This document shows positions 42,954-48,090 of a stretch of DNA of 64,000 nucleotides, one piece after another (position 1 is the stretch's first letter; each line of letters begins with the position of its first letter). Position numbers and translations under genes: made by a program. This stretch comes from Sulfitobacter sp. F26169L (lineage in GTDB: Bacteria > Pseudomonadota > Alphaproteobacteria > Rhodobacterales > Rhodobacteraceae), in NCBI RefSeq assembly GCF_026410285.1, contig NZ_JAPMLP010000001.1:620001-684000 (forward strand). Direction: 5' to 3'. Under the pieces are notes generated by a model. That model was not told the origin of the DNA, did no database searches, and worked only from the letters and a program-made list of their open reading frames with translations.

Positions 42954-47200
<4,247 letters not shown>

Positions 47201-47296
47201 GCGAGGTGATCCAGAAAGTTCACAAATGTTCCTAAAAAGTTCTTTACTGCGCGTTAATAGTGTGAGAACAAAGAGGCAACAAGAATGGAGAGAGAC

Positions 47297-47425
47297 ATGA
47301 GCTTCTACCGCACACTCAAAGCAATCGCCGAACGGTCGCAAGATACGTTGGCGCATGACGCCGCGGGTGCCGCTGCATTGGTTGTGATGTTGGTAGTTGG
47401 TTTGCATCTTCCCGGACTTGTCTGA
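47297..47425 (+). CDS. Small 42-aa protein upstream of a structured RNA
   Basis: A 42-codon ORF with GGAGAGAG just upstream of ATG. The peptide starts MSFYRTLKAIAERSQDTLAH and has one hydrophobic segment in the C-terminal half (AALVVMLVVGLHLPGLV). I recall similar short proteins in roseobacters; no function is known. It is followed by the folded region at 47447-47552 and a strong terminator, so the transcript may carry both peptide and RNA element. An earlier in-frame ATG at 47285 is possible but leaves a less favourable ribosome site. Confidence 0.6.
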   Translation: MSFYRTLKAIAERSQDTLAHDAAGAAALVVMLVVGLHLPGLV

Positions 47426-47446
47426 TTTTCTGCCTGCGCTCTCATG

Positions 47447-47552
47447 CCATGGCCGGTTTACTGGCGCATTTGTCCCAAATTGATGCGCTGTATATGTTAC
47501 GTTCTGCCTGTCCGTAACATTTAGGGGGTGCCTTCCCCAAACCGGCCATTGG
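47447..47552 (+). ncRNA. Candidate structured RNA with four-way junction
   Basis: An outer helix P1 pairs ATGGCCGGTTT (47449-47459) perfectly with AAACCGGCCAT (47539-47549), extendable by CC/GG with one bulge. Inside are P2 (GCGCAT 47464-47469 with ATGCGC 47483-47488), P3 (perfect 8 bp, ATGTTACG 47494-47501 with CGTAACAT 47513-47520, 11-nt loop) and P4 (GGGG/CCCC, loop TGCCTT, abutting P1). The 9-mer TTCTGCCTG occurs in the P3 loop and again just upstream at 47428-47436. A terminator follows at 47578-47615, so the plus strand is favoured. It matches no RNA family I can recall. It could be a stand-alone sRNA, a 3'UTR-derived sRNA or an attenuator. Confidence 0.5.
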
Positions 47553-47577
47553 GTCCTACATGAGTAACGCTTTTCTT

Positions 47578-47615
47578 GCGCCGCCATCTGTCCCGGATGT
47601 GCGGCGCCTTTTTTT
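47578..47615 (+). terminator. Strong rho-independent terminator
   Basis: GCGCCGCCATC pairs with GATG-T-GCGGCGC around a 7-nt loop, giving 11 bp with one bulge, followed by seven T residues. It ends the transcript carrying the 42-aa ORF and the structured RNA, before the convergent Fe-S scaffold gene. Confidence 0.88.
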
Positions 47616-47643
47616 GCGCAATCTCTGTTCGCGGCTTTTCGGT

Positions 47644-48090
47644 TCACGCCATCTGGAGTGCGGTTTCCATCGCTTCGGCCAGTGCCTCAATGCTCAGCAT
47701 GATAGAGGCGTGGCGGTTTTTGTACTCCACCGCAGGGGTCAGCACCTCGAATCCGTCAAATGGCGCGTCCGGCACGCCGCCATTGTCTTTCAGCATCGCT
47801 TTCAACTGGTCGCGGGCAAGTTTCACGGTTTCCACAGTTGCACCTTGGGCTGCGCTGGCTGTTATCGCCGCCGCGGCCTGACCCAATGCGCAGGCCTTTA
47901 CGTCTTGCGCCAGTGTTTCCAACCGGTTGCCCGACATTTTGACATCTACCGTCACGCTTGAGCCGCACAGGGGCGAGCGACGGTTTACGCTCGCATCGGG
48001 TGTCTCAAGCCGACCCAGATGTGGAATATCCGCCGCCAGCGCAAGAATGCGTGCGGAGTAGAGCTTCATCAAATCGGTATCGTTGGACAT
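47644..48090 (-). CDS. IscU/NifU-like Fe-S scaffold protein
   Basis: A 148-aa protein of the NifU N-terminal/IscU-like fold, a family that assembles or carries Fe-S clusters. Two expected ligand cysteines are seen in SPLCGSSVTVDVKM and DVKACALGQAAA, matching the family CGD/CGS and C(A/V)xxxAS blocks. The third Cys of canonical IscU, near the C-terminus, is not present, so it belongs to the divergent subgroup common in Rhodobacteraceae. It is transcribed divergently from hisI with a 75-bp gap. No other Isc/Suf genes are nearby. Confidence 0.75.
   Translation of the reverse strand: MSNDTDLMKLYSARILALAADIPHLGRLETPDASVNRRSPLCGSSVTVDVKMSGNRLETLAQDVKACALGQAAAAITASAAQGATVETVKLARDQLKAMLKDNGGVPDAPFDGFEVLTPAVEYKNRHASIMLSIEALAEAMETALQMA

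Follow-up and report, generated by a model that had tools for sequence, protein, structure and literature searches.

A conserved structured 3'-UTR RNA joined to a candidate SOS gene for a small membrane protein in Rhodobacteraceae

In the genome of Sulfitobacter sp. F26169L, we found a structured RNA with a four-way junction, encoded directly behind a small gene whose product is predicted to be a single-pass membrane protein. The RNA has a conserved fold on the plus strand, the open reading frame (ORF) to which it is linked is coding, a conserved box precedes both, and the locus is present across a bacterial family. We describe it as a structured RNA in the 3' UTR of a candidate SOS gene that had not been recognised before. 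On balance, and with slightly more credence than doubt, we read the locus as the source of an SOS transcript under LexA control, which would encode a small membrane effector and end in a conserved 3'-UTR RNA that probably acts in trans via C-rich motifs.

Results

The window (the whole stretch of DNA that was analysed, 64 kb) carries recG, recognised by its RecG domains, at 45110-47200 upstream of the element. A convergent Fe-S scaffold gene with a NifU_N domain (24.9 bits versus a cut-off of 22) lies at 47644-48090 on the opposite strand. A preliminary description of this DNA had placed a four-way-junction RNA at 47447-47552 on the plus strand, followed by an intrinsic terminator, and we found its helices, hairpins, TTCTGCCTG repeats and terminator all at the coordinates claimed. 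It had also taken the stretch to be non-coding behind a 42-residue ORF. An outer helix, a LexA-type promoter and the conservation of the ORF had been missed. Its suggestion that the RNA could be an attenuator for the downstream region failed: the next gene is the convergent scaffold gene, and since this lies on the opposite strand, the RNA cannot attenuate it.

When 47400-47640 was folded, the junction proved to be the inner part of a larger structure, in which an outer helix (P0) encloses the closing helix P1 and the junction. The 5' side of P0 (47436-47446; GCG, then CTCATG) and its 3' side (47559-47570; CATGAG, then CGC) pair through GCG at 47436-47438 with CGC at 47568-47570 and through CTCATG at 47441-47446 with CATGAG at 47559-47564, which covariation recovers as helices 1 and 2. 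In P1, the 5' side (47447-47459) pairs with the 3' side (47539-47552) in a perfect helix of 11 bp (47449-47459 with 47539-47549) plus CC/GG at 47447-47448 and 47551-47552; our covariance model, R1, covers the outer part of P1 only (helices 3 and 4). Three hairpins stand inside P1, each seen in folding, covariation and column conservation: P2 (47464-47488) with a 6-bp stem, GCGCAT/ATGCGC, starting at 47464 and 47483, and the loop motif UGUCCCA; P3 (47494-47520) with an 8-bp stem, ATGTTACG/CGTAACAT, starting at 47494 and 47513, and the loop motif UUCUGCCUGUC; and P4 (47524-47538), GGGGG..TCCCC, with the loop UGCCU. On the 5' side, a single-stranded leader (47426-47435) carries the motif CUGCCUG, which extends to 47436, and TTCTGCCTG is found twice, at 47428 and 47502. 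All these elements lie on the plus strand, as does the terminator (47578-47615), a hairpin at 47578-47608 with seven T at 47609-47615.

The inner element (47447-47552) folds with -46.2 kcal/mol and a z-score of -4.4, equalled by 1 of 200 dinucleotide shuffles, which bears out the earlier remark that such nested pairing is unlikely by chance. For 47400-47640 the z-score is -4.97, and none of 200 shuffles was as good. Because the reverse strand of the element has a similar z-score (-4.4), a single fold leaves the strand undecided; it is the relatives that decide for the plus strand, with 125 G-U cells versus 26 A-C cells in the alignment of 71 R1 matches.

R1 was built from seven closer relatives, and the window's own sequence was not among the seeds. 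Within the 64-kb window it locates the RNA at 47428-47578 (48.0 bits, E 5.4e-9), the sole other match listed being no better than chance (12.9 bits, E 0.27). For comparison we assembled 110 loci, 30 from a first tblastn search with the small ORF and 80 more. R1 was run on 100 of them (L030 and L103-L111 were left out) and matched 71 at E ≤0.1 and 65 at E ≤0.01; five of the 71 are seeds, and therefore 66 of 95 non-seed loci were matched. No R1 match was obtained in 29 of the 100 loci, although the ORF is present there. Aligned to R1, a fit that leans towards the model and has a mean pairwise identity of only 54%, the 71 loci show two-sided, compensatory changes at 31 of 31 modelled pairs, and 90.7% of the cells pair. 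Covariation scores 0.498 in this alignment; shuffles scored 0.157, none of 500 reaching the real value, and slid partners gave no more than 0.080.

Two tests were independent of any alignment. The stretch from stop codon to terminator folds with a z-score below -2 in 62 of 95 relatives (L030 and 14 loci without a terminator match were omitted), as against 9 of the 110 stretches that were taken from the end of recG as controls. In minimum free energy folds of unaligned sequences, a three-hairpin junction within at least eight enclosing pairs occurs in 72 of 91 relatives (four further loci, with stretches above 200 nt, were omitted); the same topology arose in 425 of 3,640 shuffles and in 12 of 110 recG stretches. 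The helices are kept in relatives, and so is the GC-rich terminator, in 95 of the 109 relatives scanned, namely those without N. A MAFFT alignment of 81 relatives yielded the terminator only, and mixed smaller alignment sets gave poor consensus folds.

No Rfam family reached its curated threshold at the locus or at the loci of 20 relatives, and at a relaxed threshold two weak matches appeared (16.4 and 15 bits versus thresholds of 50 and 43). Given the covariation and the lack of a curated family, the proposal of an undescribed structured RNA with its own terminator stands. Elsewhere in the window, 25136-25314 matches RF02647 (Cis52_sRNA, Ruegeria) with 102.6 bits versus a gathering score of 56. 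To chance folding of a GC-rich stretch next to a terminator, or to DNA conserved for another reason, we give next to no weight: the reverse strand does fold about equally well, but covariation, alignment-free junction topology and strand asymmetry all contradict chance folding, which we rejected on these grounds and on the z-scores in relatives. That is, the structured RNA is real in fold, strand and conservation.

The RNA begins directly 3' of the stop codon of a 42-codon gene (47297-47425 on the plus strand, stop included). Pairwise differences by codon position (0.417/0.275/0.610 among 101 relatives) mark the ORF as coding. By hydropathy, the product is a predicted single-pass membrane protein, with one hydrophobic segment in its C-terminal half (residues 24-42, mean hydropathy 2.17). 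T17, D21, G24, L28, L32, L36 and P39 are invariant in an alignment of 24 sequences, and the 42-residue protein has no match in Pfam or NCBIfam. In 97 of 110 loci, CTGCC, the start of the RNA leader, lies at most 60 nt from the stop codon, at a median distance of 6 nt. All 71 R1 matches are on the strand of the ORF, at -1 to +67 nt from the end of the stop codon (median +5), and none of the 71 is misplaced relative to the ORF. With the terminator following at 47578-47615, the RNA is predicted to be the 3' end of the small-ORF transcript. For this reason '3'-UTR-derived', one of the types put forward in the preliminary description, fits better than the independent sRNA named beside it.

Upstream of the ORF lies a conserved promoter block, GTTCacaaatGTTCctaaaaaGTTCtttac (47218-47247, plus strand; consensus over 109 relatives), with a LexA-type box, GTTC-N7-GTTC, at 47228-47242 on the plus strand, the sole such box in the 64-kb window. 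In 109 of 110 loci, GTTC-N7-GTTC stands no more than 260 nt ahead of the ORF start that was matched; in the preceding stretch, none of the 110 has it. The sole locus counted as box-less, L030, has a run of N and a frame misread by the script, and it was left out of the z-score and R1 counts. GTTC-N7-GTTCTTTAC is kept in 100 of 110 loci, the box abutting TTTAC, and the promoter consensus over 109 relatives reads GTTC.CaaATGTTCT.AaAAAGTTCTTTACa. A second conserved block, GAGAACAAAG (47264-47273, plus strand), of the type GA(G/A)AACA, follows TTTAC at fixed spacing, exactly 16 nt past it in 90 of 92 matched loci. We recognised no ordinary -10 element downstream of TTTAC, and GA(G/A)AACA is unlike a -10 box; this block is a candidate operator half-site or start region.

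In the genome that the window comes from, recA (GAACATTAATAGAAC) and lexA (GAACGTCCCTAGAAC) both have a box of this type upstream, which in the case of lexA lies 44 nt ahead of the ORF. Boxes were also found close to an imuB-like gene (IMS domain), to the gene of a UvrD-type helicase and to that of a radical-SAM protein, and other boxes that were inspected lie near genes without an evident repair link. A GTTC/GAAC-type box (L145:1538-1552, on C26 of the same genome) overlaps the start of a radical-SAM ORF (L145:1546-2787), which is possibly a further SOS gene. In the roseobacter Dinoroseobacter shibae, LexA sites of GTTC and GAAC form are described, with sites in silico at recA and lexA (PMC6473078). 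The bare box is no commoner genome-wide than the reversed pattern (91, that is 44+47, versus 104, that is 58+46), and the SOS argument therefore rests on position and conservation.

A scan of the GTDB species collection with the promoter only (GTTCNNAAAAAGTTCTTTAC) gave at least 117 stretches, of which 80 were listed as loci. Among the 80 listed, a small ORF lies downstream in 73 by rule (with doubtful frames in L187, L202 and L217), a recG-like end lies upstream in 64 by a loose rule, and R1 matched 38 at E 0.1. The seven listed without the ORF are three Bacteroidota (L184, L199, L252), two loci cut near the locus end (L239, L257), L201 and L220. A related promoter pattern has a single occurrence in the window's own genome, at this locus. 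That is, a scan by promoter alone leads back to the small-ORF locus. From these sequence features we infer that LexA would bind the promoter and that damage would induce the transcript.

With the ORF as query, tblastn gave matches in 181 of 295 genomes of the family (180 of 294 genera). A protein profile (24 sequences) matched 246 of 290 Rhodobacteraceae genomes and R1, at E 0.001 and with stricter filters, 66 of 290, with one copy each in both cases. Six of these 66 R1 matches came from genomes that tblastn had missed, and five of the six have the box and a diverged ORF. Among 385 genomes class-wide, the profile matched five and R1 three, all of them Rhodobacteraceae, so that neither the protein nor the RNA was found outside Rhodobacteraceae in this set. 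Named records carrying the same gene belong to Ruegeria, Roseovarius, Sulfitobacter, Rhodovulum and others, and from these we infer that the family is the Rhodobacteraceae. One RNA match, L307 in G201 (39.5 bits), has neither box nor small ORF within the 1.1 kb fetched; it may be a copy that stands by itself, the locus may be degenerate or the match may be false. At L222 and L242 (Paracoccus saliphilus and P. amoyensis), the promoter block is kept, the small ORF is strongly diverged and R1 found no RNA; possibly, the RNA was lost or replaced in Paracoccus.

The most conserved letters of the RNA include unpaired ones, namely CUGCCUG in the leader, CUGUCCC in loop 2 and CUGCCUGUCC in loop 3, and UGCCUC in loop 4 is conserved less strictly. 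Mean conservation is alike in paired (0.67) and unpaired (0.65) columns, and a reading in trans therefore rests on few motifs, not on whole loops. Such repeated C-rich motifs suggest a partner in trans. Exact complements of GGGACAGG were not enriched over the reversed motif, the sum over two genomes being 306 versus 298 (142 versus 151 in the own genome, 164 versus 147 in G055). Neither were those of GGACAGGCAG in six genomes (89 versus 100 reversed), with counts uneven by genome (20 versus 6 in G187, 19 versus 12 in G055, 11 versus 25 in the own genome). Real loops bound start regions no better than shuffled loops, with the exception of loop 4, which was 0.4 kcal/mol better than shuffled. Coding controls showed this effect equally, and we rejected generic anti-Shine-Dalgarno loops on both counts. 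No target emerged from these tests in silico. Our first guess is a trans-acting RNA, with a cis element and a protein decoy as its main rivals.

As a cis-acting 3' UTR, the fold would serve its own mRNA only, by protecting it from 3' exonucleases or by tuning decay or termination, and nothing would happen in trans. In all 71 model matches the RNA lies directly behind the ORF, at a median of 5 nt, and it stands before the terminator; this place suits such a function, as does the result that no target was found in silico. But the unpaired C-rich motifs of the leader and of loops 2 and 3 are kept while the stems change letters, and stability alone needs none of them, so that we regard a purely cis-acting element as unlikely, if well worth keeping in view. 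A protein decoy or landing pad, whose C-rich repeats bind an RNA-binding protein that the SOS transcript would then titrate, could draw on four similar C-rich unpaired motifs per molecule and on the lack of any base-pairing preference of the loops for start regions; we consider it improbable.

Self-repression in the manner of type I toxins, with the 3' domain folding back on the ORF start and the message silent until processing, is more doubtful still. The pairing of a short hydrophobic peptide, a candidate SOS product, with a folded mRNA does resemble TisB and, as far as the passages on it go, DinQ (PMC3567139), but start regions paired no better with the loops of their own species than with those of other species, and folds of whole transcripts brought the start region into the 3' UTR in only 8 of 67. 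We rejected start-site sequestration by the 3' UTR on these two results.

Discussion

In the reading that we favour, a LexA-controlled message with a trans-acting 3'-UTR RNA, LexA would repress the promoter (box at 47228-47242) between recG and the convergent Fe-S scaffold gene. Upon DNA damage, an mRNA of about 350 nt would be made, comprising the coding region for the 42-residue inner-membrane protein and a structured 3' UTR of 190 nt with, in this order, the outer helix, the four-way junction with its three hairpins and the terminator. The protein would be an SOS effector like SidA or DinQ that slows division or alters the membrane. The 3' UTR would persist or be excised as a stable RNA in which the repeated C-rich motifs are exposed, and this RNA may act in trans on other RNAs or bind a protein. 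Both the SidA- or DinQ-like role at the membrane and what the RNA would bind are guesses, the former by analogy.

TisB is an SOS-controlled small hydrophobic transmembrane peptide with a structured mRNA and control at the RNA level. SidA of Caulobacter is described as a LexA-controlled inner-membrane division inhibitor of 29 residues that binds FtsW (PMC4211646, in part). The likeness to SidA is one of description, both being very small proteins, here a predicted membrane protein under putative LexA-type control; unlike SidA, a proven inhibitor, the protein here has 42 residues and is a candidate effector. DinQ of E. coli, according to the passages available, is a toxic SOS peptide with a single transmembrane segment under RNA control (PMC3567139), and thus resembles the putatively SOS-controlled, RNA-linked single-pass peptide of this locus. 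Whereas DinQ is controlled by the antisense RNAs agrA and agrB, the RNA here would be the 3' UTR itself, and its fold-back is unsupported. No such SOS division inhibitor in Rhodobacteraceae is named in the titles and abstract openings of the literature searched.

Several 3'-UTR-derived sRNAs are described for Rhodobacter sphaeroides, namely CcsR1-4 behind ccaF1, SorX and UdsC (PMC8625941, PMC9779115, in part). From what these passages report, they resemble our putative SOS transcript in that a structured RNA follows the coding part of a stress message, and for ccaF1 and RSP_7527 this coding part is likewise small or hypothetical (PMC8625941, PMC9779115). Unlike those RNAs, with which sequences were compared via Rfam only, the element here would combine a single four-way-junction RNA with a membrane protein and a LexA-type promoter. 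UdsC, in the passages describing it, has 67 nt and depends on RpoHII, and we judged it to be different for these reasons, that is, on size and promoter only. Among Rhodobacterales motifs, HRC-8-4 and uORFC-8-2 are likewise order-restricted structures found by comparative genomics, but their locations differ, between cco operons and upstream of cysS, according to the passages available (PMC8632094). The titles, abstract openings and passages of the literature searched, including PMC2864571 and PMC4809877, hold no description of our element, and we found no literature on a recG-linked sRNA of Rhodobacteraceae.

A wider reading, to which we hold tentatively and with more doubt than confidence, is that most Rhodobacteraceae have a bifunctional SOS transcript, coding for a SidA-like checkpoint peptide and carrying a four-way-junction regulatory 3'-UTR RNA with several binding motifs. 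The locus supplies a structured RNA family, strongly covarying, for a large family of bacteria, and with R1 and the protein alignment many genomes can be annotated for the element. It also gives the Rhodobacteraceae a candidate for an SOS effector of division or of the membrane, and whether a protein effector and an RNA regulator share one SOS message becomes testable. If the wider reading is true, the DNA-damage response of the family would have an RNA arm within the same message as its protein arm.
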